Origin: Peristeroidobacter soli
GTDB lineage: Bacteria; Pseudomonadota; Gammaproteobacteria; Steroidobacterales; Steroidobacteraceae
DNA length: 64,000 nucleotides
Reading direction: 5' to 3'
NCBI RefSeq assembly: GCF_004138485.1
Contig: NZ_RYEV01000003.1
Span: forward strand, 744,001-808,000
In this document: piece by piece, positions 21,413 through 48,987 of the stretch
Numbering within the stretch: the stretch's first letter is position 1
Layout of the letters: each line of letters opens with the position of its first letter
Notes under the pieces: generated by a model
What the model was told of the DNA's origin: nothing
The model's input: only the letters and a program-made list of their open reading frames with translations
Databases searched by the model: none
Position numbers and translations under genes: made by a program

Positions 21413-22449
21413 GGTTGCATCTTCAGCGCGTTGGCCACGCGCCGCCAGTCGTTTGCAGCAAGCGGCAGGCCGAAACGCAGCAGGGTGCTGTCGTAGTCGA
21501 ACGGCCGGGCGAGAATGCCTCGGGAGGCGAGTTGGGTGAATCTGGCGCGGGCATCCGGCGCACGGGCCAGTCGATAAAGCGAGGTGCCGCCGACGATCGT
21601 CATGCCGCCACTGACCAGCAACTTGTCGAGTCGCTGCGCGGCGCGATGCAGGCGCAGGCGTGTCCTCGCGGCCCAGGCTTCGTCCGCATAAGCGGCCAGG
21701 CCGGCGCATAGAGCATCGGCAGAGACGGGCCAGTCGCCCAGCAAGTGACGTAGCCGAGTGGCGATACTGGTCGAGGCGATGACGAATCCGAGTCGTATGC
21801 CGGCCAGTCCATAAAACTTTCCAAACGAACGCAGCACCATCATTCGCGGTGCGCGACTGGTGCCGGCGAGTCCGGCGACGCTGAGTTGTGGTTCCAGATC
21901 GGCGAAGGCCTCGTCGACGATCAACAGGCCGTTGTTTGCGTGCAAGGTACCGTGCAGCGACAACAGTCGCTCACGGCTCATCACCCGCCCATCCGGGTTG
22001 TTGGGAGTGACGACCGTCATCGCGGTTTTCGCGGCGGCACGCGTCGTCAACTCCGCGTCGGCGACGACGTTTGTTCCGATGCCTGCGCGCGTCCACGCAT
22101 CGGCATGTGAACCGTATGTTGGTCCGGCGATCACTGCGGACGCCACATTCAATAGATACGGCAGCAGCCTCAGCACGTTCTCTGTTCCGCCGGTCGCGAC
22201 CACTCTCGCCGGATCATCGACGCCGAACGCCGCCGCGGCTGTAGCCTCGAGCTTTGCCAGATCGGTGGGTTCGGGCAGCCGATTGCGCTCGCGAGCCGAA
22301 GCTCGCGGCGCGGGATATGACGAAGGATTGATGCCCGTGGACAAATCGATCCACGGCTGTGTCACATCCGGAAACAGCGCGCGTGCGACACAGAGCCGGC
22401 CGCCGTGATGAGCAAAGCGACCGGCGGCGATGTCAGCGCCACCTTTCAT
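21409..22449 (-). CDS. cobC: L-threonine-O-3-phosphate decarboxylase (class I/II aminotransferase fold)
   Basis: A PLP enzyme that makes (R)-1-amino-2-propanol phosphate, the linker attached by CobD. Starting at MKGGADIAAGRFAHHGGRLC gives 346 residues; the start codon shares one base with the btuB stop (TAATG). Key segments are WIDLSTGINPSSYP, VVATGGTENVLRLLP, VTPNNPDGRVMSR, LIVDEAFADLEP and the Schiff-base lysine region VLRSFGKFYGLAGIRLGF. The symbol follows Pseudomonas/Rhodobacter usage; in Salmonella this enzyme is called CobD. It lies between btuB and cobO in the riboswitch operon. Confidence 0.92.
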   Translation of the reverse strand: MKGGADIAAGRFAHHGGRLCVARALFPDVTQPWIDLSTGINPSSYPAPRASARERNRLPEPTDLAKLEATAAAAFGVDDPARVVATGGTENVLRLLPYLLNVASAVIAGPTYGSHADAWTRAGIGTNVVADAELTTRAAAKTAMTVVTPNNPDGRVMSRERLLSLHGTLHANNGLLIVDEAFADLEPQLSVAGLAGTSRAPRMMVLRSFGKFYGLAGIRLGFVIASTSIATRLRHLLGDWPVSADALCAGLAAYADEAWAARTRLRLHRAAQRLDKLLVSGGMTIVGGTSLYRLARAPDARARFTQLASRGILARPFDYDSTLLRFGLPLAANDWRRVANALKMQP

Positions 22450-24380
22450 TAGAAGCTCTGTCGGAGGCCCGCGTAGAAGGTGCGGCCGAGCGTGCCGTAG
22501 TTCCTCGCGGTCTGATATTCCTCGTCGAAAGCATTCTCGATGCGGCCATACACTTCCATCGAATCGCTGACCGCATACGACGCACGGAAGTCGCACAGCG
22601 TGTAGCTGTCGAGCACGAAAGTATTGGCGATGGTGTCGAAGGCGCGGCTGGCGTGCTGAACGGCGACCGTGGTGGTCAAACCCACCGGCCATTCGTAGCT
22701 CAGCTGCGCATTGGCGGTTTCATCCGGCCGGCGCGGCAGAGTGCGACCGAAAGTCGTCGCGCCCCGCGCGGTGTTCTCCGCATCCATGTTCGTGTAGTTC
22801 GCCGTCAACGTCAGCTGTTCGGTCAGGCGCGCCGCCACGGCCAGCTCCACGCCATGCGCGTTGGTCTTCTGGAAGTTGTCGTAATAACCGAAGCGTCCCT
22901 GGCAGAGCGGCGAGGTATCGCCGAAGTCGCAGGACACGAAGTCGATCATGTTCTTGGTGTCGCGATCGAAATAAGTCGCGGAGACCACCAGCTTCTTGTC
23001 GAAGAAATGTTGCTCGACACCGGCGTCCCAGCTCTCGGCCTCTTCGGCGTTGAGGTCGAGATTGCCGTACTCGCTGTACAGCTGATACAGCGTCGGCGCT
23101 TTGAAACCTTCGCCGAAGCTGGCGCGCAGGATGGTGGACGGCGTGACCGACCATGCGGCCGACGCGCGCGTCGTCGTGTGGCTGCCGAACGTGTCGTGAT
23201 CGTCATAGCGAACGCCGGCGCTCAACGACAACGTGTCGATTGGGGTCACGTTGACTTGCGCGTAGGCGCTGTCGATCTGCACTTCGCCGGTCAGCGGGAC
23301 GGGATTCGGATCGAACGTCGACGGCGAAGCCGTGCTCAGCTCGGAGCGTTCCGACTCCAGGCCGACGATGGTGCTCACGCGGTCCGTGATCCGCAGCGTG
23401 CCCTGATATTCCCAGCGCTTGTTGCTGCCTTCGGCATCGAACGTCTTGGGCACCGTCGATGACGGGTCGGTGTCCTGGCGATCCGTATCCGTGTAAGCGA
23501 AGCCGATGCGATTCTGCAGGCGGCCGTCGAACGCACCGAGGGTTACGCCGGTGTACGTCGTCAATTCTTCAGTGACTCCGTAGTCCGGAGTGTCGCGCAG
23601 CGGGAAGCCGTCGAATTCCGAACGGCCGTCACTCCAGGTCGAGCGCACTTCAGCGGTGATATTGTCCGTGATGTGCAGGATGCCGCGAGCGTTGAAGCCG
23701 ACGTTGCGATAGCTGTCCGGTTCGGTGCCGAGCGCATAGGCGGAGATGCCGTCGCTGGTCACATAGTTGCCGCCGACACGCCAGGCGAAACAGTCGCCGC
23801 CGGCCTGCACGTTGCCGCGGACGATCGCTGTGTCATGAGTGCCGCCCTCGACGGAGTACATCGCGGACAGCGGGCCTTCAGGCACCGGCGTCACGATGTT
23901 GATGACGCCGCCGATGGCCTGGCTGCCCCACAGCGTGGACTGTGGACCCCGCAACACTTCGATCTGTGCGAAGTCGGTGGTGATCAGATCGGCGAAGTTG
24001 AATTCGCCGCTGGCCGATGAGGGATCGTTGAGCTTGACGCCATCGATGAGCACGACGGTCTGATGGCTTTCAGCGCCGCGGATGCGCACGGTCGTGGTGC
24101 CGCCCAAACCACCGTTGCGAGCGACGGCAATGCCCGGCGTTACCGCGAGCAGATCGGACACCGCGGTCTTCTGACTCCGGCGCTGCTCTTTGGCGGTGAT
24201 CACGGTGACTGAATCGCCGACCTGCGATGTTTCCTGCGAAATTCGATTGGCGCTGACGATCACATCCTCGACGCCATCGCTGGCGTCGGCGGCCAGCGCG
24301 GACAACGCCGGATGTAACAACAGCGCCGCGGACGCGGCGAGAAGACGAGAAGACGGACGGCAGACGGATTGGGTGTGCAC
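22449..24380 (-). CDS. btuB: TonB-dependent vitamin B12 receptor BtuB
   Basis: The outer-membrane corrinoid transporter. A signal peptide ends near ALAADASDG, followed by the TonB box DVIVSANR, the plug (TAVSDLLAVTPGIAVARNGG, LRGPQSTLWGSQAIGGVINI) and a 22-strand-type barrel ending in FYAGLRQSF. The length of 643 residues is close to E. coli BtuB (614). It is the first gene behind a cobalamin riboswitch and heads the btuB-cobC-cobO-btuFCD-cobD-cobQ operon. That regulation makes the substrate call much firmer than the receptor sequence alone. Confidence 0.95.
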   Translation of the reverse strand: MHTQSVCRPSSRLLAASAALLLHPALSALAADASDGVEDVIVSANRISQETSQVGDSVTVITAKEQRRSQKTAVSDLLAVTPGIAVARNGGLGGTTTVRIRGAESHQTVVLIDGVKLNDPSSASGEFNFADLITTDFAQIEVLRGPQSTLWGSQAIGGVINIVTPVPEGPLSAMYSVEGGTHDTAIVRGNVQAGGDCFAWRVGGNYVTSDGISAYALGTEPDSYRNVGFNARGILHITDNITAEVRSTWSDGRSEFDGFPLRDTPDYGVTEELTTYTGVTLGAFDGRLQNRIGFAYTDTDRQDTDPSSTVPKTFDAEGSNKRWEYQGTLRITDRVSTIVGLESERSELSTASPSTFDPNPVPLTGEVQIDSAYAQVNVTPIDTLSLSAGVRYDDHDTFGSHTTTRASAAWSVTPSTILRASFGEGFKAPTLYQLYSEYGNLDLNAEEAESWDAGVEQHFFDKKLVVSATYFDRDTKNMIDFVSCDFGDTSPLCQGRFGYYDNFQKTNAHGVELAVAARLTEQLTLTANYTNMDAENTARGATTFGRTLPRRPDETANAQLSYEWPVGLTTTVAVQHASRAFDTIANTFVLDSYTLCDFRASYAVSDSMEVYGRIENAFDEEYQTARNYGTLGRTFYAGLRQSF

Positions 24381-24489: not shown

Positions 24490-24700
24490 CCCGGCCGATC
24501 GATGGACGACGGCGGCAAGCAGGTCTCCTGGCTGATGGCTGAAGTCCTCGCGTCACCTTCCCGGCGTAGCCCATCCCAAGGGGGCGGACGCCAGTGGTCT
24601 TTGACGCGCGGCGAACCACTTACAGTTGCGGGGGCAGCCCGGGTTTCACACCCGAGTTCCCTTTGAATCCCCTTGCGGGGAACTTGTCGCGCGGCGCGAG
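24490..24700 (-). promoter_or_regulatory. Cobalamin riboswitch upstream of btuB
   Basis: Read on the minus strand, the conserved aptamer core is present: GGGAACTCGGGTGTGAAACC, then GGGCTGCCCCCGCAACTGTA, and finally the B12 box AGCCAGGAGACCTGC. The order and spacing are those of the adenosylcobalamin class. The aptamer ends about 110 bp before the btuB start, leaving room for an expression platform at 24381-24490. It should turn the whole btuB-cobQ operon down when B12 is plentiful. The outer stem limits are approximate. Confidence 0.95.
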
Positions 24701-24723
24701 GATGAAGTTTGGGCGAGCCTTCG

Positions 24724-29234: not shown

Positions 29235-29262
29235 GGCGGCATCTGAACGGTGAGTGCGGGCA

Positions 29263-29859
29263 ATGGTCGAGAATGACGGATCGGGTGAGCGGGCTTCGGT
29301 CGGGCGGCGCCTGATCATTGGCGGGGCGCGTTCGGGGAAGACCGCTCATGCCATCGCGCTGGCGAAATCGCTGTCGGCGGCGCGCGGCATGAATGTCACC
29401 TATGTTGCCACGGCGCAGGCGCTCGATCAGGAGATGCAGCATCGCATCTCGTTACATCGGGCGGAGCGGCCGGCAACGTGGCGCACCTTAGAAGCACCGA
29501 CCGGTCTTGCGCAAGCGTTGGCCGGGCAGGAGGCCTCGAGCATCGTGGTCGTGGACTGCATGACCCTGTGGCTGTCGAACGCATTGCTCCAGGATTTTCG
29601 CGAAGATGCGCCGACCGCGCCGTTGCCGGCCTGGCAAGCCGAGCGCGATAAATTCCTGCAATGGCTGTCATTAGCGCGCGTTGAGGTGTTGTTGATCTCG
29701 AATGAGGTCGGCATGGGCATCGTGCCGCTCGCGCCGGTGGCGCGGCGTTTTCAGGATGAACAAGGACGTTTGAACCAGATGCTGGCGGCGGCGTGCGATC
29801 AAGTGACGCTGGTGGTCGCCGGAATTGCCGTGCCCATCAAGCGCTTCCGGGCCGGTTGA
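29263..29859 (+). CDS. cobU: Adenosylcobinamide kinase/guanylyltransferase CobU
   Basis: A bifunctional enzyme that phosphorylates adenosylcobinamide and transfers GMP to it; it is needed for cobinamide salvage. The P-loop is LIIGGARSGKTAHAIALA, followed by VTYVATAQALDQEMQHRI with the guanylylation-region histidine (RISLHRAERP). VVDCMTLWLSNALL and ISNEVGMGIVPL complete the family pattern. The ATG at 29263 is preferred over the GTG at 29254 because GGTGAG lies eight bases upstream. The length is 198 residues. A cobalamin riboswitch begins about 30 bp after its stop, so cobU itself lies upstream of that control. Confidence 0.93.
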   Translation: MVENDGSGERASVGRRLIIGGARSGKTAHAIALAKSLSAARGMNVTYVATAQALDQEMQHRISLHRAERPATWRTLEAPTGLAQALAGQEASSIVVVDCMTLWLSNALLQDFREDAPTAPLPAWQAERDKFLQWLSLARVEVLLISNEVGMGIVPLAPVARRFQDEQGRLNQMLAAACDQVTLVVAGIAVPIKRFRAG

Positions 29860-29884
29860 TTGACGACGTGAGCCTTTTCGCGCA

Positions 29885-30090
29885 AGGTGCGCGCGAACGA
29901 CGAGTCATGGGAACCGGGTGCAATGCCCGGGCTGCCCCCGCAACTGTAAGCGGTGCCGCCATCGACGCTCCCGACTGTGAGGAGCAACCACTGGGTGAAT
30001 GCCTGGGAAGGTGATGCGCAGGCAGGGAACCTGTTCCTAGCCGCAAGCCAGGAGACCAGCTCGTCGCGGTCGTCTTCGTGCAGCCGGGGT
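29885..30090 (+). promoter_or_regulatory. Cobalamin riboswitch upstream of the CobN-like gene
   Basis: The core is complete in order: GGGAACCGGGTGCAATGCCC, GGGCTGCCCCCGCAACTGTA, and the B12 box GCAAGCCAGGAGACC at 30043-30057. About 75-100 bp of leader remain before the start of the CobN-like gene for the expression platform. Its position shows that the CobN-ExbB-DUF2149 operon responds to B12 level. The 307-bp gap after cobU is essentially this element. Outer stem limits are approximate. Confidence 0.95.
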
Positions 30091-30190
30091 GTGCTGAACG
30101 AGCGGGAATTCCTGCAGCGGCGACAGGTTCACGGAGCGGTGCCTGAAGGCCATCGCATCGTGTGGTGTGTCAGCTTGTGCAGGTCCCGTC

Positions 30191-33100
30191 GTGCGATCGC
30201 CGCCTCATTCCCTCGTCCGTTGGTTTCACGGACTGTGTTTCCTGATGCTTGCCTGTTTCGCCGCCGAATTGTCCGCGGCGACGTTGGTTGCGGTCGTTTC
30301 CGAGCGCAACTCCGGCGATCTCGCGCAGGCCGCGCGTGATTTCAACCAGCGCCTGCCCGATCATCGACTGATATTTCGCACGACTGCGCAGGTCGACGCG
30401 CTCAGCGATGCGCAGTTGCAGGAGCTGATCGGCGGGGCCGATGCACTGTTGCTGGCGACGGTGTTCAAGGAAACCGCTCAGCGCATTCAAGCGCAGCTCG
30501 CCACGACGCGCGCGAAAGAAATCATCGCGGTCGCCGGCGATCCTGGACTCGGGCGGCAAAGCCGATGGCGCGCCAAACATTTGTTTATCGATGAAGATCC
30601 GCGCTACGCGGAGCTCTCGTCATTGACCGCCGAGAAAGATGCCGGAGCGAGCGCTGTTGCTGCTGCAGTTCAGCGCTATCCCCGACTGGCGTCTTGGATT
30701 CAAGCGCGCGCTTATTGGCAGAACCGGGGCGAGTCCAACTTGATTTCGCTGTTGGCGTTGTTGCTCTCCGAGCAGGACCAGGCGGCCGCGGCGGCGATCA
30801 AGCCGGTTGAAGACGCGTTGCCCATGCAATTTCACTATCGCGATGAGTGGTCGACGGCTGAAACGTTGCGCATCTCCGGTGATCGACCGGTCGTCGCCGT
30901 GCTCGAAGATCAGCACGCCGATGTCACGTTGAGTGAATCGATCTGTCGTTCGCTGGCGGCGCGCGAGCTGGACTGCCTCACCGTGCTCGCGGGCTGGGGC
31001 AGGCCGAGCAGCGATGCGCTCGGCGTCATTGGCAGCAAGGTCGGCGCTCGCTTGGGCGCGATCGTGTCCGTGCAGGACTTCATCATCGGCGGCAGCAGTG
31101 ATCGTGCCGGGGCCACTCGTCGACTCGAGCAGCTCGATGTGCCTGTGCTCAAGGCACTCCGACTGCACGATGTGACGGCTGAAGGCTGGCGCATGTCCGA
31201 GCAGGGCCTGGCTTGGGACAGTGTTTACTACCGCGTGGCCATGCCGGAGCTGCAGGGAATCAGTCAGCCGATCGTCATCGCTGCCGCAGCCGCTGCTCAG
31301 TTGGATTCATTGACTGGCATCGCGGTGACGCGGACTGCGGCCATTCCGTCGCAAGTGGAACAGATGACGGCGCGGATCGAGCGCTGGACGCGTTTACAGA
31401 AAACCAGGAACGCCGACAAGCGCGTCGCCATCGTTTACTACAACCATCCGCCGGGTCGTCACAACATCGGTGCCGACAATCTCGACGTGCCCGCTTCGTT
31501 GCTGGAAATCCTGCGAGCGTTGCAGCGCGACGGCTACGACACCGGGCCGTTGCCAGCGACGTCGGCGGAACTGCTGGAGAGGCTGCAACAGGACGGCGTG
31601 AATCTTCCGGAGCAAGGCGATGTGCTGCGCTCGATGGCGACCCGTGTCACCAACGTCAGCACGGAACAGTACGGGAAATGGTTTGCAACGTTGCCTCAGC
31701 CGTTGCAGAAGGAAATGACCGGCGGCCCGCTGGCGTTCTTGCTAGCGAATGTTCAGGCAGCACAGGCTGCGCGCTTGCCTCAGCACGCGCGCGGTCAGAT
31801 CACTCGAACGCTGCATGAGATCGAGCATCTGCTCGAAGGCGCTCAGCATCCGGCGCGTGATCGCGCGCTGGATCTGGTCAAGCAGTTGCAGGTTGCTTAC
31901 GAGACGCAGCTCACCAAAGGCGGCAACGAAGCGACCATCGACAAGCTGACTCGCGCGATTGCAGCGACGGGTGTCGAAGGCTTGCGCGGCTGGGGAGAGG
32001 TCCCTGGCAACGTGATGGTGAACAAAGGCAAGCTGGTGCTGCCGGGCTTGCGCTTCGGGAATATCTTCGTGGGTCCGCAGCCGCCGCGCGGCTGGGAGTT
32101 GAACGAAGAGCTGCTTCACGCCAACACCAGCATTCCACCCACGCATCAGTATCTGGCGTTCTATTTCTGGTTGCGCCACGAGTTCCACGCCGATGCCATC
32201 GTGCATCTGGGGCGTCATTCGACGTATGAGTTCCTGCCGCGCAAAGGGGTCGGGCAGGACGAGCTCGATTATCCGGCGCTGATTGCCGGCGACATTCCGG
32301 GCATCTATCCCTACATCGTCGATGGCGTCGGCGAGGGGCTGCAGGCCAAGCGGCGCGGTCTTGCGGTGATGGTCGACCATTTGATTCCGCCGCTGACCGC
32401 GACGCCGCTCTATGACGATCTGTTGCGTCTCCGGCAGCTCGTGGAGAGTTACGAGTCGTCCAACAACCCGGCACTTCGCAAGCAGGCAGCGTCATCGATG
32501 CGCGCGCTCATCGATGAGTTGCATTTGAAAGACGCGCTGACCGCGAGCATGGATGCCGAGCTGAAGGTGCGTGGCATTTCGTTCGAGCAGACCGACGACG
32601 AGCTGCTGGTGCATGAGATCGGCCACTATCTCACTCACCTGCAGGAAGATTTCATGCCGCTGGGTCTGCATGTGTTCGGCAAGCCCTGGCAGAGGCAAGC
32701 GCTGGACACGATGCTGGTGTCCATGAAAGCGAAACCGGGCGACCGAGTGCTGCGTCAGAACCTCCAGAGCTCGCCGGAAAACGAAATGCGCGCGCTGCTG
32801 CACGGTCTCTCCGGTCGATTCATTCCCGCCGGGCCGGGCAACGATCCGATTCGCAATGCCGAGGCGCTGCCGACAGGACGCAACTTTCACGGTCTCGACA
32901 ACAGTCTGATTCCGTCGCGACTCGGATATTCGCTGGGCGCGAAGCTCGCAACCGAAGCGCGCGCCAAAGTCAAAGAGGATGGCAAGGAAGCGGTCATCCT
33001 GTGGGCGTCGGATTCGGTGCGAGACGAAGGCGCGATGGTGGGCTTCGGTTTGTCACTGCTGGGCATCGCCCCGGAATGGAATAGCCGTGGCATCGTGGCC

Positions 33101-34477
33101 GGCCTGCAACGGCAGCCGCTGAACGACGTCGGCCAACGTGCCGACACCGTGTTCGTCGCGTCGGGCCTGTTCCGCGATTTGTTCGGTCAGCAGATCGTGT
33201 GGTTGGATAAGGCGGTGTTGCTGGCGCTGGATGGCAGCCGCCGTACCATCGAACGCAGTCGTCCCGATCTCGCGCCGGCACTGCGTGCCGCGCTGGAACC
33301 GTTAGGACCGATGGCGAACGCGGGCGACGAGCCGCTGACACGAAACCATGTCGCACGCCATTGGGTGAATGAAACATCCGCGCTGATCAAGCAAGGCTTG
33401 AGTCGTGCCGACGCGGGTAAGCAAGCGAGCCTGCGTGTGTTCGGCACTTCGCCCGGAGACTATAGCGCCGGCATCAACCGCGCGGTGGAGCGCTCCGGGA
33501 GCTGGCACGATCGTAAGGAGCTGGCGAAGATCTATATCGATCGCATCGGTCACGCGTACTCCGCCGATGGCACGAGTCAGGCGCAACAGGAACTGTTGAA
33601 AAGCAATCTGCGCGAGGTGCGTAACACCTATTTGGGCCGCTCCAGCAATCTGTACGGCCTGATGGATAACAACGACGCGTTCGACTATCTCGGCGGCCTG
33701 AGTCTGGCCGTGGAAACGTTGAGCGGTCGCGTGCCGGCCAGTCATGTCGCCGATCATTCCAATCCGTCGCTGCCGACGATGCAGCCGTTGCCGACCGCGT
33801 TGCTGACGGAGTTGCGCGGGCGTTATCTGAATCCGGCGTGGATCAAACCGTTGATGCAGCATGGCTATGCCGGCGCGCGCACCATGGGCAGCGAATTCAT
33901 GGAGTACTTGTGGGGCTGGCAGGTCACGAACCCGGACGTGATCAAGAGCTGGGCCTGGGACGAGGTCAAACAGGTGTACGTGGACGATTCACATCACCTG
34001 GGCCTGGACCAGTTTCTGGAGCAAGGCTCCAACGTGCACGTGAAGACCAACATGATGGCCATCCTGCTGGTCGCGGCCGAGAAACAATTCTGGCAGACCG
34101 ACGAAGCTACGTTGCAGCAGCTCAGTCAGAAGTGGGTCGATCTGTTGCTCGAACATGGCCTGCCCGGCAGCGGTCACACGCAGCCCGATCATCCGGTGTT
34201 CCAATATGTGCAGCCGTATCTGCGTGCCGATCAGATCGAGCCGCTCAAACAATTGCTCGAACGCGCGCGTGTGGATGCGAAGGCTGCTTCATCGCCGACG
34301 ACGATGACGGAGTTGCAAGCAGCGCAGGAAAGCCAGACCAGGCAGCAGACGGCTGACGCTCAGGGTGCGGGCGGTCGATCGCCACGGGCTTTGGTGGTCA
34401 TCGTGCTCGGTATCGCGGTATTGCTGTCCGCTGGATATGTCCGCGGACGTTACATTCCCAAGGAACGTTCCGTATGA
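30191..34477 (+). CDS. Secreted, membrane-anchored CobN-like (cobaltochelatase/BchH family) protein
   Basis: Belongs to the CobN/magnesium-chelatase H family, whose core is visible in VHLGRHSTYEFLPRKGVG, IPGIYPYIVDGVGEGLQAKR and RGLAVMVDHLIPPLT. Unlike cytoplasmic CobN, it has a signal sequence (SLVRWFHGLCFLMLACFAAE then LSAA) and a C-terminal membrane helix (ALVVIVLGIAVLLSAGYVRG). This suggests a periplasmic body anchored in the inner membrane. About 1428 residues from the GTG at 30191 (AGGT seven bases upstream); the track start at 30167 is an alternative. Its stop overlaps an ExbB-like gene, followed by a DUF2149 gene. No CobS/CobT AAA+ chelatase partners are present. A role in handling cobalt or corrinoid across the envelope is inferred. 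Confidence 0.88.
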   Translation: MRSPPHSLVRWFHGLCFLMLACFAAELSAATLVAVVSERNSGDLAQAARDFNQRLPDHRLIFRTTAQVDALSDAQLQELIGGADALLLATVFKETAQRIQAQLATTRAKEIIAVAGDPGLGRQSRWRAKHLFIDEDPRYAELSSLTAEKDAGASAVAAAVQRYPRLASWIQARAYWQNRGESNLISLLALLLSEQDQAAAAAIKPVEDALPMQFHYRDEWSTAETLRISGDRPVVAVLEDQHADVTLSESICRSLAARELDCLTVLAGWGRPSSDALGVIGSKVGARLGAIVSVQDFIIGGSSDRAGATRRLEQLDVPVLKALRLHDVTAEGWRMSEQGLAWDSVYYRVAMPELQGISQPIVIAAAAAAQLDSLTGIAVTRTAAIPSQVEQMTARIERWTRLQKTRNADKRVAIVYYNHPPGRHNIGADNLDVPASLLEILRALQRDGYDTGPLPATSAELLERLQQDGVNLPEQGDVLRSMATRVTNVSTEQYGKWFATLPQPLQKEMTGGPLAFLLANVQAAQAARLPQHARGQITRTLHEIEHLLEGAQHPARDRALDLVKQLQVAYETQLTKGGNEATIDKLTRAIAATGVEGLRGWGEVPGNVMVNKGKLVLPGLRFGNIFVGPQPPRGWELNEELLHANTSIPPTHQYLAFYFWLRHEFHADAIVHLGRHSTYEFLPRKGVGQDELDYPALIAGDIPGIYPYIVDGVGEGLQAKRRGLAVMVDHLIPPLTATPLYDDLLRLRQLVESYESSNNPALRKQAASSMRALIDELHLKDALTASMDAELKVRGISFEQTDDELLVHEIGHYLTHLQEDFMPLGLHVFGKPWQRQALDTMLVSMKAKPGDRVLRQNLQSSPENEMRALLHGLSGRFIPAGPGNDPIRNAEALPTGRNFHGLDNSLIPSRLGYSLGAKLATEARAKVKEDGKEAVILWASDSVRDEGAMVGFGLSLLGIAPEWNSRGIVAGLQRQPLNDVGQRADTVFVASGLFRDLFGQQIVWLDKAVLLALDGSRRTIERSRPDLAPALRAALEPLGPMANAGDEPLTRNHVARHWVNETSALIKQGLSRADAGKQASLRVFGTSPGDYSAGINRAVERSGSWHDRKELAKIYIDRIGHAYSADGTSQAQQELLKSNLREVRNTYLGRSSNLYGLMDNNDAFDYLGGLSLAVETLSGRVPASHVADHSNPSLPTMQPLPTALLTELRGRYLNPAWIKPLMQHGYAGARTMGSEFMEYLWGWQVTNPDVIKSWAWDEVKQVYVDDSHHLGLDQFLEQGSNVHVKTNMMAILLVAAEKQFWQTDEATLQQLSQKWVDLLLEHGLPGSGHTQPDHPVFQYVQPYLRADQIEPLKQLLERARVDAKAASSPTTMTELQAAQESQTRQQTADAQGAGGRSPRALVVIVLGIAVLLSAGYVRGRYIPKERSV

Positions 34478-34911
34478 ACTCATTGATCGTGCAATGGACC
34501 CACTCGCTGGTGCCGTTGCTGCTGACGCCGGTCGTGATCGGATTGTTTGCTTGTGTCGCGCTCGCGTGCGTCGATATCGGCGTGTTGTTCGGCGAGCGGG
34601 GCTTGCTGCGCCGGCGTGAACGGCCGACCGATGTCGGCGCGGTCGAGCGTCGGGCGCATCGCCGGATCGAGCGGGCGGACATCCTCACCCGCACCTCTCC
34701 CATGCTCGGCTTGATGGCTACTCTGATCTCCCTCGGGCCCGGTCTGACCGCGCTCAGCAACGGCAATTTGAACCTGCTGGCCGAGGCGATGCTCACGGCC
34801 TTCGATGCCACGGTGCTCGGGCTGGCGGCCGGGGTGGTCGGCTTCATCATTGGCCGGCTGCGGCGCCGGTGGTACGACGAAGCCCTCGGGCGGTGGGAGG
34901 CGCAGTCGTGA
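34474..34911 (+). CDS. MotA/TolQ/ExbB-like proton-channel protein (short)
   Basis: A small member of the ExbB/TolQ/MotA family, 145 residues against 230-245 for ExbB/TolQ. An N-terminal membrane helix (LVPLLLTPVVIGLFACVALA) precedes a basic cytoplasmic loop. The core RTSPMLGLMATLISLGPGLT and AMLTAFDATVLGLAAGVVGFI is the conserved pair of pore helices. The ATG overlaps the CobN-like stop (ATGA), and its own stop overlaps the DUF2149 gene. It probably couples proton flow to the CobN-like protein in the same way that ExbB energises TonB. That coupling is inference from gene order and family. Confidence 0.88.
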   Translation: MNSLIVQWTHSLVPLLLTPVVIGLFACVALACVDIGVLFGERGLLRRRERPTDVGAVERRAHRRIERADILTRTSPMLGLMATLISLGPGLTALSNGNLNLLAEAMLTAFDATVLGLAAGVVGFIIGRLRRRWYDEALGRWEAQS

Positions 34912-35216
34912 GGCGGCGCTGGAGTAGTGCGCGATTTGACGAAACCCCCGAGGATCCGCAGGCGTCGCTGGTCAACCTCGTGGACATCATGCTGGTCTTC
35001 ATTTGCGGGCTGATCGTGGCGCTGGTGTCGGCTCAACCGGTGTTCAGCAGCCGCTCCGGCAGCGCCGAGGGAGGCAAGCAAGTCGTTGAGCCGGGACGCG
35101 AACTTGCCGAGCTGCCGGAGGGATTGAAGGGCCAGGCGGCCGGCGCCGGCATGCAGCCGGTGGGCCAGGTCTACCGGGATCCCGAGACCGGCAAACTGAT
35201 CCTGGTCGGGGAGTAG
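34908..35216 (+). CDS. DUF2149 protein, ExbD/TolR-like motor partner
   Basis: 102 residues from a GTG that overlaps the ExbB-like stop; the track start at 34869 reads from the previous gene. A single membrane helix near residues 22-42 carries DPQASLVNLVDIMLVFICGL. Its Asp aligns in position and context with the proton-carrying Asp of ExbD/TolR (IDVMLVLL). The C-terminal 60 residues are periplasmic and end in QVYRDPETGKLILVGE, a DUF2149-type tail. It is the last gene of the CobN-like operon. With the ExbB-like protein it would form a minimal proton-driven motor. Confidence 0.85.
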   Translation: MRRRWSSARFDETPEDPQASLVNLVDIMLVFICGLIVALVSAQPVFSSRSGSAEGGKQVVEPGRELAELPEGLKGQAAGAGMQPVGQVYRDPETGKLILVGE

Positions 35217-35326
35217 TCGCCGGGCGTACCCCCGCGGCTTGCCAAGCTCCAGGCCGGCGCTGCATTCTCGCATTGCCCACCAGTGCCGCTCTCCGCGGCT
35301 GGAAAGTGGCAATTGCGGAGACTGCG

Positions 35327-36424
35327 ATGATGATGACCGAGACGCGAGCGGCTGCCAGCCGGGGCTCGATGGTGGATGCGCTGGGATCTTTGCATCGGGC
35401 CGTCGATATCGAGGGGCTGTGGGAGAGCAGCGTGCGGCTGATGCAGTCCTCCCTGCACCATCATTCGTGCAGCCTGATGCTCGGCATCGACGACTATCGG
35501 CCGGTCACCGCCCGCCATCACGTGCAGGAGCCGCTACAGCCGGGCTACGTGCCGGCGACCAGTTTGACGGTGTCGCAGCCGTTCCTGGCCACGCATCCCA
35601 AGGTCCAGCTCTACACCTTTTCTCAGATCGCCGACGAAGATCCGCGTGCGCACGAGCGCAGGATCGCGCAGGAGGCGGGCTCGGATGAGTGGTGCGAGTT
35701 CGTGCACCTGGCGTTCTGGAACGAAACCGCCCCGCAAGCCGTGTTCAGCATCCGGCGCAGCGCGCGCCAGTCTCGCTTTTCCTCCGACGAACTGGCGCTG
35801 CTCCAGCAAATCTATCCAGCGATCGACGCCGGTTTGCACCGTTTGCGCACGCTCGAGCGCGAGCGCTTCAAATCGTTCGCGCTCGAGCAGGCGTTGAGCC
35901 GCTCCACGGCGGCGGTGATCCTGACCGACCGACGCGGCCGCGTGCTGTTCGCCACGCCGGAAGGACGTCGATTGTGCTCGCGCTGGGCGCAGGCATCTTC
36001 GGGACGACCCGGCACGGAGCAGCCGGCGGATGAGTTGCCTGCCGACCTGGTGCAGTCCATCGACAGCCGCCGCAGCGCCGGCGTCGACGACACGCAGTCG
36101 TTGCGGCACGCGGTCGATACCGATCTGACGGTCACTGTGGATGATGCAGAATCCGACGCGATGATGCGCACGGAGCCCGCCTACGTGCTGCATTTCTCCG
36201 CGACCAACGAGCGGCTGCCGCAGCGGGAACGAGCCAGCGAGATTCTCGGGCGCCTCTCGCCGAGCGAGCGAAAGGTCGCGTTGCTGGTCGCCGAGGGGCT
36301 GCGCAACGAACAGATCGCCCAACGGTTGTCACGTTCACGTCGCACCGTCGAATCGCAGCTCAACGCCGTATTCGGCAAGCTCGGCCTGGTGTGTCGTGCA
36401 CAGTTAGTGAAAGTTCTGTCGTAA
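35327..36424 (+). CDS. LuxR-family transcriptional regulator
   Basis: 365 residues from the first of three ATGs at 35327, with GGAG six bases upstream; the track's TTG at 35273 has no such site. The N-terminal and central part looks like a GAF/PAS-type sensor (FVHLAFWNETAPQAVFSIRR, AAVILTDRRGRVLFATPEGR). The C-terminus has the LuxR helix-turn-helix LSPSERKVALLVAEGLRNEQ with IAQRLSRSRRTVESQLNAVF. It lies 110 bp after the DUF2149 gene and 173 bp before a TonB receptor, with a strong dyad between. Control of the receptor-hydrolase pair downstream is a reasonable guess. The signal sensed is unknown. Confidence 0.85.
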   Translation: MMMTETRAAASRGSMVDALGSLHRAVDIEGLWESSVRLMQSSLHHHSCSLMLGIDDYRPVTARHHVQEPLQPGYVPATSLTVSQPFLATHPKVQLYTFSQIADEDPRAHERRIAQEAGSDEWCEFVHLAFWNETAPQAVFSIRRSARQSRFSSDELALLQQIYPAIDAGLHRLRTLERERFKSFALEQALSRSTAAVILTDRRGRVLFATPEGRRLCSRWAQASSGRPGTEQPADELPADLVQSIDSRRSAGVDDTQSLRHAVDTDLTVTVDDAESDAMMRTEPAYVLHFSATNERLPQRERASEILGRLSPSERKVALLVAEGLRNEQIAQRLSRSRRTVESQLNAVFGKLGLVCRAQLVKVLS

Positions 36425-36458
36425 CTTCTGCTTCACGTCGGTGCACGACGTGAAGTTA
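36423..36458. promoter_or_regulatory. Strong dyad between the LuxR-type gene and the TonB receptor
   Basis: A perfect 10-bp inverted repeat, CTTCACGTCG / CGACGTGAAG with a 5-base spacer (36431-36455), lies nested in an outer AACTTC/GAAGTT pair. It begins right at the stop of the LuxR-type gene. No true T-run follows (TTATATTCT), so it may be either that gene's terminator or an operator for the receptor gene 140 bp downstream. Confidence 0.45.
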
Positions 36459-36597
36459 TATTCTCCGCAACGCTCATCCCGCGCCTCGGGACTTCGAGCC
36501 GCTCGCCAGCGCGCCCGTCTTTGGGTGTTTTCTTTGATGATGAGCGCAGCAGCCTCGTAGAAGAATCGCCTGCACCCTGGCCGCTGGAGAATAAGGA

Positions 36598-39258
36598 ATG
36601 AAGTTCGCGTTTCGAACGCTCGGCGCATATGCGTTACCGTTGTTTGCTGTCGCGCCGGTCGGCGCGCAGAACGTCGGCAACGAAGGCAACGCGCCCGTCC
36701 TGGAAGAAGTAATGGTCACCGGTTCGAATCTGGCGACCAGCTCGGTGAAAGACGGCCCGGTGCCCATCACGGTGCTGAGCTCGGAAGACTTCACCGAGCG
36801 CGGCGTGACCACTGCGTATGAAGCTCTGTCCACGCAACCTTTCTTCGGTGGACAAGCGGACAACGACACGCGTGCCGGCGCCGGCAACGCCAACCAAGTC
36901 AACCTGCGCGGCCTGGGTTCGGAATACACGCTCGTGCTGCTCAATGGCCGTCGCGTCGGCAGCAGGGATTTGAACCTGGTGCCGTTCGCGGCCGTCGAGC
37001 GCATCGAGGTCGTCAAGGACGGTGCATCGTCCGTGTACGGTTCGGACGCGCTCGCCGGTGTCGTGAACGTGATCCTGCGTGACAAGTTCGACGGCATGGA
37101 AGTGAGCGCCAACTACGGCGACAGCACACACTACGGCGACGGCGGCAAGGGGCAGATCTCTTTCATCGGCGGCGGTCGCGGCGAGCAGGGCAGCTTCCTG
37201 TTGTCCGGACAATACGAGAAGCAGGACGCGATCCTGAGCCTGGAGCATCCGCTCGGCGCAAGCGACGACCAGCGCCCCTGGGGCGGGCTCGACCTGCGCT
37301 CGCAACGACGCAACCCCGGCCTGATCACGTTGAACAACGGCAGCAACGTCATGCTAGCGCCGGGCTTCGGCGTCGGCCAGACGGGAACCTCGGCGAGCGA
37401 CTATGTGCCGGCGTACTCGCAGCTCATCGACAAGCGTCAACCCAACAATCTGCAGAACGACCGTGAAGCCGGTACGTTGTATGCGCGCGGCGTCTACGAG
37501 TTGGCGGACAGCGGCATCGAACTGTTCGGTGATTTTCTATACAAGCACGCCAACGTCGGCTACGTCGACCATCGCGGCACGTATCTCAACTACAGCGTGC
37601 CCGCGAGCAACTACTGGAATCCGTTCGGACAGGACGTGACCGTCAGTTATCTGCTCGACTACGGCACCGCCGACGGCCGCCAGGAGCGGCCGCTGGAGGC
37701 GATGCAGTCCGATATGGACATCACCATGTATGTCGGCGGTGTCCGGGGCGAAATCGGCCGCGTGAACTACGAAATCGCGTACTCGGACTATCAACGCCGG
37801 GACGTGCAGAGCCATGACGGACTGAGCCGTGCCCTGATTCTTCAGCAACTGGCACGTACCGACGCGGGCGCGCTCAACCTGTTCGGCAATGCCGCCGTCA
37901 CCGCCGATCAGCTCGCTCCGGCTCGCGCCCGCTTCTCGCGCACCTATGAAACATATGTGAGTTCTTTGACAGGCGTGGCTCGTTTCCCGGTCGCTGAACT
38001 GCCCGCCGGCCCGCTCGCCGCCGCGGTGGGCTTCGAATTCCGTAAGAACGGTTTCTCGCAGCTCTTGGACGAGTCGTTGAACGTGTTTCGGGATGCCGCC
38101 TCGCTGACCTTCCTCAATGACAGCAGCGCTGCGCTGTCGCGCTCGGTCGATGCTTATTACGCCGAGGTGAATATTCCTCTGGCGGGCGGAGACTTCACGG
38201 CGCCGGCACTACAGCAGCTGGACCTGGGCCTCGCGGTCCGCCACGAAGAGTTCAGCGACTTCGGCAACGCTACCGTGCCGCGCGCCACGCTTCGATGGAA
38301 GCCGCTGGCCGATACCGATCTGCTGGTGCGCGCCTCCTACAGCGAAAGTTTCTATGCTCCCAACCTGCCCGACCTCACGCCGCAAGGCGACGTCAACGTC
38401 GATCCCTATTTCGATCCGTTGATCCTCGATGCCAACGGCAACCCGCTGCGCTATGACATGGAGACCGAAGGCGGCGGCAATCCCAATCTCGATGCCAGCA
38501 ACGGCAAGTACTACAACCTGGGGGTGGTGTTCAGCCCGAGCTTCATCGACGGGCTCACCGTTTCAGTGGACGGCTTCTGGCTGAAGCAGACCGATGGCTT
38601 CATCACGCCCGACGAACAGGTCATCTTGAACGGGCTCGCGCCCGGCGAAATCATCCGTTCCGGAGCGCTCACGCCGGGCGACAACTATGCCGGCGCGCCG
38701 GTGGGGCGGGTGACTCGCGTCGTCGCGCGCGTCGCGAACGCGGCGACTCGCACCGTCGAAGGCATCGATCTGGACCTGACGTATTCGTTCGATACCGCCT
38801 GGGGCGAGTGGACCATTGGCAGCAACAGTACCTACACGACGAAGTTCGAATATAACAACGCCGATGGCAACGGAGTGCAGAGCGCTCTGGGCAAGTACAC
38901 CGCGGTGTTCAGCACAGTGCCGCGTTTCCGTTCAGCGCTGCAGCTGGCGAACCGAATCGGACCGGTCAGCGCTTCGCTGGTGACGAACTATGTCGGCGGC
39001 GTGGACAACACCCGCTACAACAATCGCGCGATCAGCAGCTATGTCACCTCCGATCTGAACCTGCTGGTGGATTTCGACGAGACCGCGTGGGGCGATGGCG
39101 CGTTGGCGGGTACCACGGTGGGTTTGACGGTACGCAATCTGTTCGACGAGGATGCGCCGTTCTACGCCACTGCGTTCCTGCGCGGCGTGGCCACCAACTA
39201 CGCCTACGTCGATCTGGTCGGGCAGTTCGTCACGTTGTCGCTGCGTAAGAAGTTCTAA
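36598..39258 (+). CDS. TonB-dependent receptor (no STN domain)
   Basis: An outer-membrane transporter of 886 residues. The signal peptide ends at PVGAQNVG, followed by a TonB-box-like VLEEVMVTGSNL. The plug contains VNLRGLGSEYTLVLLNGRRV and SSVYGSDALAGVVNVILRDK, and the barrel ends in FVTLSLRKKF. It lacks the N-terminal signalling domain of the receptor at 6.6 kb. It lies 21 bp upstream of the serine hydrolase/D-aminoacylase fusion, so the two are likely co-transcribed. The shared context suggests import of a D-amino-acid-containing or N-acylated compound. The ligand cannot be read from the sequence. Confidence 0.9.
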   Translation: MKFAFRTLGAYALPLFAVAPVGAQNVGNEGNAPVLEEVMVTGSNLATSSVKDGPVPITVLSSEDFTERGVTTAYEALSTQPFFGGQADNDTRAGAGNANQVNLRGLGSEYTLVLLNGRRVGSRDLNLVPFAAVERIEVVKDGASSVYGSDALAGVVNVILRDKFDGMEVSANYGDSTHYGDGGKGQISFIGGGRGEQGSFLLSGQYEKQDAILSLEHPLGASDDQRPWGGLDLRSQRRNPGLITLNNGSNVMLAPGFGVGQTGTSASDYVPAYSQLIDKRQPNNLQNDREAGTLYARGVYELADSGIELFGDFLYKHANVGYVDHRGTYLNYSVPASNYWNPFGQDVTVSYLLDYGTADGRQERPLEAMQSDMDITMYVGGVRGEIGRVNYEIAYSDYQRRDVQSHDGLSRALILQQLARTDAGALNLFGNAAVTADQLAPARARFSRTYETYVSSLTGVARFPVAELPAGPLAAAVGFEFRKNGFSQLLDESLNVFRDAASLTFLNDSSAALSRSVDAYYAEVNIPLAGGDFTAPALQQLDLGLAVRHEEFSDFGNATVPRATLRWKPLADTDLLVRASYSESFYAPNLPDLTPQGDVNVDPYFDPLILDANGNPLRYDMETEGGGNPNLDASNGKYYNLGVVFSPSFIDGLTVSVDGFWLKQTDGFITPDEQVILNGLAPGEIIRSGALTPGDNYAGAPVGRVTRVVARVANAATRTVEGIDLDLTYSFDTAWGEWTIGSNSTYTTKFEYNNADGNGVQSALGKYTAVFSTVPRFRSALQLANRIGPVSASLVTNYVGGVDNTRYNNRAISSYVTSDLNLLVDFDETAWGDGALAGTTVGLTVRNLFDEDAPFYATAFLRGVATNYAYVDLVGQFVTLSLRKKF

Positions 39259-48596: not shown

Positions 48597-48973
<377 letters not shown>

Positions 48974-48987
48974 AATTTCCCACCTCG

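Follow-up and report, generated by a model that had tools for sequence, protein, structure and literature searches.

The 64,000-nucleotide stretch of Peristeroidobacter soli DNA analysed here (the window; G+C 63%, from contig C2 of a 9.37-Mb genome) carries a cobalamin riboswitch followed by three genes encoding a CobN-like protein, a small ExbB-family protein, and a DUF2149 protein. The riboswitch and the translationally coupled trio occupy positions 29868-35216 of the plus strand and make up one unit. Residue counterparts are given relative to HmuS (PDB 9D26), the CobN-family protein of the hmuYRSTUV heme operon of Bacteroidota, which is the closest known system and also contains an ExbB-like protein (HmuU) and a DUF2149 protein (HmuV). 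The features of the unit are as follows.

29868-30078, plus strand: cobalamin riboswitch aptamer RF00174, full length (cmscan 87.3 bits, E=3.6e-20)
30167-34477, plus strand: CobN-family chelatase-like protein, predicted to be exported and membrane-anchored, 1436 aa (Pfam PF02514, CobN-Mg_chel, E=7e-253)
30191-30277, plus strand: predicted signal-sequence region of the CobN-like protein (sequence reading; recurs in homologues)
32216-32218, plus strand: His684 of the CobN-like protein, counterpart of the catalytic HmuS His538 (alignment to 9D26)
33674-33676, plus strand: Asp1170 of the CobN-like protein, at the position of HmuS His1209 (alignment)
34388-34441, plus strand: predicted C-terminal membrane anchor of the CobN-like protein, its end overlapped by a GxxxG/A/S motif (G1423-G1427)
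34474-34911, plus strand: minimal ExbB/TolQ/MotA-family proton-channel protein, 145 aa (PF01618, 35.1 bits, cut-off 22.9)
34908-35216, plus strand: DUF2149 protein, 102 aa (PF09919, 44.6 bits, cut-off 27.1)

About 90 bases separate the riboswitch from the CobN-like open reading frame, whose actual start codon could be the GTG at 30191. At both junctions of the trio, the stop codon overlaps the next start by four bases, and the genes are therefore regarded as coupled. An earlier note on this DNA had placed a complete cobalamin riboswitch ahead of three translationally coupled genes of these families, and the full-length RF00174 match, the Pfam matches, and the overlaps bear this out. A promoter was looked for and none was found; terminator-like matches were no better than chance. 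DUF2149 is present in 21 of 369 gammaproteobacterial genomes and falls into two score classes, a high-scoring one of 85 bits or more (H-type) and a low-scoring one that includes the window protein (W-type).

Topology, Fold, and Active Site of the CobN-like Protein

The N-terminus of the CobN-like protein is basic and then hydrophobic, with an AxA-like site (ELSA-AT) before ATLVAVVSE, and the C-terminus consists of a low-complexity linker, one hydrophobic helix (the anchor, ALVVIVLGIAVLLSAGYV), and a basic tail. Both ends recur among the homologues, with an N-terminal hydrophobic region in 88 of 90, a C-terminal hydrophobic helix in 88 of 90, a basic tail in 89 of 90, and the GxxxG/A/S motif at the end of the helix in 87 of 90, in agreement with the earlier claim of an envelope-facing protein with a signal sequence and a C-terminal anchor. 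These topology calls are made by hydropathy only, and canonical CobN also passes the same N-terminal threshold; the case for export therefore rests on the AxA site and the anchor. The signal/anchor topology has been described for Porphyromonas gingivalis HmuS, and CobN and ChlH are without it (PMC13227078).

The protein scores under all NCBIfam CobN/BchH cut-offs (best 601.7 bits vs 1619; TIGR02257, 524 vs 822). Plasmid-derived rows were left out of the sequence sets for fold prediction, and the AlphaFold (AF2) model of residues 38-1237 (pLDDT 85, pTM 0.82) gave whole-length Foldseek matches to CobN 7C6O (TM 0.64) and HmuS 9D26 (TM 0.68). The model shows a predicted six-domain class I chelatase fold. 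The equivalents of HmuS His534, His538, and Glu577 are kept in the CobN-like protein and in the W-type, and His684 is invariant across an 11-sequence alignment. The residue following the His538 position is Ser, not Gly, and the position of His1209 holds Asp in this protein and in canonical CobN, against His in HmuS and ChlH.

Membership in HmuS itself was considered and rejected. The HmuS motif LSLDHxxEFMGG, which includes His1209, reads L(L/M)DNNDAFDYLGG here, and the long methionine-rich insertion of domain IV is missing, with HmuS 636-897 aligning to only about 59 profile positions and the region containing 3.9% Met; the two proteins also lie in separate clades. The HmuS head domain, which supplies the heme ligands Met79 and His254, aligns to the CobN-like protein without confidence by sequence.

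His538 is required for heme de-chelation by HmuS (PMC12583661), and the retention of its equivalent therefore points to chemistry over simple carriage, not as proof. A chelatase fold reused only to bind corrinoids in the periplasm and hand them over to BtuF would suit the salvage context of the trio. We regard such a carrier as unlikely, because even distant members retain the active-site His and Glu and the core cleft, the motor would be superfluous, and btuF is also present in many loci.

The ExbB and DUF2149 Partners

Thr83 of the ExbB protein is invariant (102/102) and Thr113 is kept in 92 of 102 sequences, both at the positions of the TolQ channel threonines. Asp26 of DUF2149, noted earlier as an ExbD-like membrane aspartate, does not vary in any of the 100 intact sequences, W-type and H-type alike. 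The AF2 prediction for DUF2149 (mean pLDDT 68, rising to 93 over residues 31-40) comprises one transmembrane helix (residues 17-42) that holds Asp26, followed by a β hairpin. The pair thus resembles TonB-ExbB-ExbD and TolQR in having an ExbB-family protein with conserved threonines and a small one-helix partner with a conserved aspartate, but the window ExbB is without a large cytoplasmic domain and DUF2149 is without the ExbD periplasmic domain. The DUF2149 protein has no ExbD match in Pfam, and no TonB or TolA was recognised next to most trios. DUF2149 therefore appears ExbD-like in layout, and a role as the ExbD of this motor is plausible; HmuU and HmuV of Bacteroides have been called ExbB/ExbD-like before (PMC10100974), and the idea is not new.

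Which protein the pair would energise is the point on which two readings part. A btuB gene or another TonB-dependent receptor gene is often adjacent to the trio, and HmuU/HmuV have been assigned to powering the outer-membrane receptor HmuR (PMC12583661, PMC10100974), so ExbB-DUF2149 could be a dedicated Ton-like energiser of BtuB, with the CobN-like protein as a periplasmic acceptor or link that performs no chelatase chemistry. We consider this unlikely, as the catalytic residues of the CobN-like protein are conserved and a TonB-like protein was found in only two W-type loci (L021 and L028; single-sequence search). On Trichlorobacter lovleyi pGLOV01, a full, separate ExbB-ExbD-TonB set adjoins the ExbB-DUF2149-CobN genes. 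DUF2149 also scores over the cut-off in the control genome of Methanosarcina acetivorans, an organism that has no outer membrane (a genome-level match). Marinobacter sp. M3C carries on a plasmid (L031:8980-13182) a W-type CobN without C-terminal anchor, ExbB, and DUF2149, and with cobO following directly after it; no other relative was found to lack the motor genes, and the anchor is lost there too. Because of the separate Ton set, the Methanosarcina match, and the joint loss in Marinobacter, we favour the CobN-like protein, rather than an outer-membrane receptor, as the client of the motor.

Distribution, Riboswitch Linkage, and Phylogeny

In Gammaproteobacteria, H-type DUF2149 genes are surrounded by genes for a CobN-like protein, ExbB, and usually a TonB-dependent receptor, and none of nine H-type loci has a B12 riboswitch. 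W-type loci with a complete CobN have one in 8 of 10 cases, and their neighbours are mostly btuB, cobO, cbiB, cobQ, and btuCD. The W-type alignment, run against the genome collection, retrieved 279 relatives, and the best 80 of these, from Gamma- and Betaproteobacteria, Nitrospirota, Nitrospinota, Myxococcota, and Campylobacterota, were analysed for neighbours and riboswitches, the latter with a covariance model trained on 14 riboswitches from W-type loci. Among named organisms, Steroidobacter and Peristeroidobacter come closest to the window's genome, at 84-89% identity in the CobN-like protein. The earlier note had proposed comparing the triplet with B12 riboswitches, and the two co-occur: ExbB and DUF2149 lie directly downstream of the CobN-like gene in 79 of the 80 loci (in the remaining one the contig ends inside ExbB), and 65 of the 80 have a same-strand riboswitch upstream, 44 of them within 800 bp. 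A riboswitch is present anywhere in the locus in 70, and little upstream sequence is available in six of the ten without one. The difference between 65/80 in the W-type and 0/9 in the sister type is significant (Fisher p=2e-6). The salvage neighbours across W-type loci comprise btuB, btuCDF, cobO, cbiB, cobQ, cobS, cobT, and cobU.

In the maximum-likelihood tree, the W-type forms one clade (bootstrap 100) on a long stem. Canonical CobN forms another (100), to which the W-type does not belong, and the grouping of the W-type with HmuS and the H-type is weak (52). The window's genome holds both types, the H-type set lying on contig C4 (L007:7711-12422), riboswitch-free and next to a TonB-dependent receptor gene. 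These results bear on the possibility that the window protein is an HmuS-like heme de-chelatase whose B12 control is incidental. The architecture is the same, HmuS His538 and Glu577 are kept, and BtuS1 of Bacteroides fragilis, a member of a family whose name PMC6460266 attributes to Rodionov 2003, affects heme-iron use (PMC6460266). With the HmuS motif replaced, the long insertion absent, a separate riboswitch-free set in the same genome, and corrinoid rather than heme genes as neighbours, such a function is very unlikely.

Both types also meet in one locus in Zoogloea, where the end of an H-type DUF2149 gene (L108:1-210 and L111:3-212) lies about 6.6-6.8 kb upstream of a W-type trio. On Runella slithyformis plasmid pRUNSL01 (L148:1-11845), genes for a TonB receptor, a permease, ExbB, DUF2149, and a CobN-like protein lie between hypF and hypCDE, in a nickel-hydrogenase maturation cluster, a context that suggests a nickel version of the machine. 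A haloarchaeal plasmid CobN (L146) is located in a corrin-ring cluster, and neither ExbB nor DUF2149 is annotated next to it.

Host Pathways

Host pathways were counted in 35 genomes with the W-type. CbiC/CobH, which is needed for any corrin-ring synthesis, was found in four (31 without), CobT_C in five (30 without), a ChlI/D-type subunit (TIGR02442) in two (33 without), and canonical CobN in two. These counts fit the earlier view that this is not the textbook CobNST enzyme, and a CobS/CobT pair that always accompanies this CobN, which the earlier note had named as a possible refutation, was not what we found. The note was also right that no CobS/CobT AAA+ partners are encoded in the window, although the genome has a CobT_C protein and a canonical CobN set elsewhere. 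In this genome no CbiC/CobH was found. On contig C1 (L006:1278-9189), a canonical cytoplasmic CobN is grouped with genes for CobW, CbtA, and a ChlI-like protein, and two divergent B12 riboswitches precede these genes; the CobN is apparently an orphan cobaltochelatase. Since the same genome has a canonical CobN with partners of its own, the window's CobN-like protein represents a paralogue whose partners differ.

A late cobaltochelatase of the usual kind, serving de novo B12 synthesis and wrongly annotated as exported, would agree with membership in the CobN family and with three ring-making W-type genomes in which no other chelatase was found (CbiX, CbiK, canonical CobN, CobT_C, or ChlI/D-type). 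In two genomes (G089 and G121; L143 and L144), corrin-ring genes (CbiD, CobG-like, and TP methylases) lie near the W-type cluster, and no other corrin chelatase was recognised in either. A signal sequence and anchor throughout the clade, 31 of 35 hosts without CbiC, AAA+ partners that are mostly absent, a clade separate from canonical CobN, and the coexistence of canonical CobN in the window's genome make this explanation highly improbable, and the ordinary CobNST enzyme was rejected on the predicted exported location, the mostly absent AAA+ partners, and hosts mostly unable to synthesise the corrin ring.

Proposed Mechanism

The trio is conserved mostly in species unable to build the corrin ring, and it therefore probably helps to handle scavenged B12-like molecules. 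We put at roughly 0.5 the probability that it works as a corrinoid-processing machine of the HmuS/BtuS kind, facing the periplasm and repressed by B12, in which a metal-site step is driven by the ExbB-DUF2149 proton motor; the coupling of the motor, the substrate, and the direction are the parts that we infer. In such a machine, the trio would be made when B12 is scarce, and ExbB and DUF2149 would together make a small motor, powered by protons, that holds the CobN-like protein via its anchor and linker. The motor would drive the conformational cycle of the CobN-like protein, in place of the ATP-driven CobS/CobT or ChlI/ChlD ring of the cytoplasmic chelatases. The body of the protein would bind a corrinoid arriving through BtuB and carry out a step at the metal site, which may be insertion, exchange, or removal of the metal, or a change of ligand. 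The processed corrinoid would then be taken up by BtuFCD and adenosylated by CobO. Such a swap of partners, from an ATP ring to a proton motor, is suggested by the gene neighbours, because canonical CobN genes adjoin AAA+ or ChlID-type genes (L006 and L147) whereas the exported CobN adjoins ExbB-DUF2149. Because most hosts are unable to make the ring, they would gain little from cobalt released for synthesis; an action on the corrinoid itself suits them better, be it inserting or exchanging the metal, changing a ligand, or handing the molecule on.

Several points weigh against this reading. Taking cobalt out of a corrin is difficult chemistry, and corrinoids without a metal are seldom met, so that the metal step may not exist. 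The three ring-making genomes fit a biosynthetic role better, and a role in cobalt insertion is possible there. Co-occurrence is no proof that the CobN-like protein is what the motor acts on, and the loss of both anchor and motor in Marinobacter could stem from a single deletion in a plasmid gene undergoing decay. The earlier hypothesis that DUF2149 is the ExbD stands as far as the aspartate in a single helix and the two TolQ threonines of ExbB, and it goes no further: profile-profile comparison with ExbD/TolR (hhalign) aligns the aspartate with 3% probability over 15 columns, and the ExbD periplasmic domain is absent from the predicted fold (AF2, low confidence). Moreover, HmuS purified without HmuU/HmuV is active in vitro with NADH (PMC12583661).

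Comparison with Known Systems

Related operons are already known (hmu and BtuS). The window trio shares with the hmu operon, whose content is given in PMC10434189, an exported, anchored CobN-family protein, ExbB-family and DUF2149 partners, and the His538/Glu577 positions. It differs in having a B12 riboswitch and a corrinoid-salvage context in place of iron control, and neither HmuY nor HmuT was seen in the window; B12 riboswitches have been noted before hmu-like operons (PMC10100974). Like BtuS, the window protein is CobN-like, predicted to be periplasmic and membrane-attached, and B12-linked, a likeness by description. The window clade differs in being proteobacterial and multi-phylum and in occurring with ExbB-DUF2149, any corrinoid function being putative in both. 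With CobNST and ChlHID, the protein shares the predicted six-domain large-subunit fold and the catalytic His; it is set apart by its predicted export, by ExbB-DUF2149 in the place of the AAA+ partners, and by hosts mostly without ring synthesis.

Pseudomonas aeruginosa PA1922-PA1925, a Zur-regulated set of a TonB receptor, a CobN-like protein, an annotated ExbD, and a hypothetical protein (PMC4542158), is similar by description, as a metal-starvation operon that joins a CobN-like gene to one of motor type, and differs by its zinc control. For Geobacter lovleyi, the authors reported a CobN that lacks CobS/T and lies in the vicinity of B12 and Ton genes, and they gave its role as unknown (PMC3403914). 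The heme (hmu), B12, Runella nickel, and PA1922-PA1925 zinc contexts suggest one machine adapted to several metals, which we offer as a lead and not as a result. We found no paper on a motor-driven chelatase in the open-access literature, which leaves out most subscription papers.

Genomic Surroundings of the Trio

The region at 13.6-29.9 kb of the window is a corrinoid uptake and salvage cluster with adenosyltransferases, CobQ, CbiB, BtuCDF, BtuB, CobS, CobT, and CobU, several of these named by sequence reading. It includes the following features.

22449-24380, minus strand: btuB
24501-24702, minus strand: second cobalamin riboswitch, in front of btuB (cmscan 107 bits)
29254-29859, plus strand: CobU/CobP cobinamide kinase, directly upstream of the riboswitch-trio unit (PF02283, E=2e-55)

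Just downstream of the trio, at 35273-39258, lie genes for a LuxR-type regulator and a TonB-dependent receptor, for which no riboswitch of their own was found. An ordinary class A RNase P RNA is located at 48597-48977.

Implications

More broadly, and more tentatively, the CobN-like proteins may represent a class I chelatase that operates beyond the cytoplasm, in a compartment without ATP, its AAA+ ring exchanged for a minimal ExbB-DUF2149 motor run by the proton-motive force. Versions for B12 and heme, and perhaps for zinc and nickel, would exist, the B12 version acting on scavenged corrinoids in ring-deficient bacteria. If true, the trio would supply a previously unassigned step of B12 salvage in many environmental bacteria, including Pseudomonas/Stutzerimonas, Azotobacter, Methylophaga, Colwellia, Arcobacter, and Nitrospira relatives, and would account for the 'cobaltochelatase' gene that corrinoid scavengers retain. 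It would also correct a widespread mis-annotation in which CobN is taken as a sign of B12 synthesis. HmuU and HmuV of the gut heme de-chelatase operon would be recast as motors of HmuS instead of motors of the outer-membrane receptor, and one chelatase fold would be drivable by either ATP or a proton gradient.

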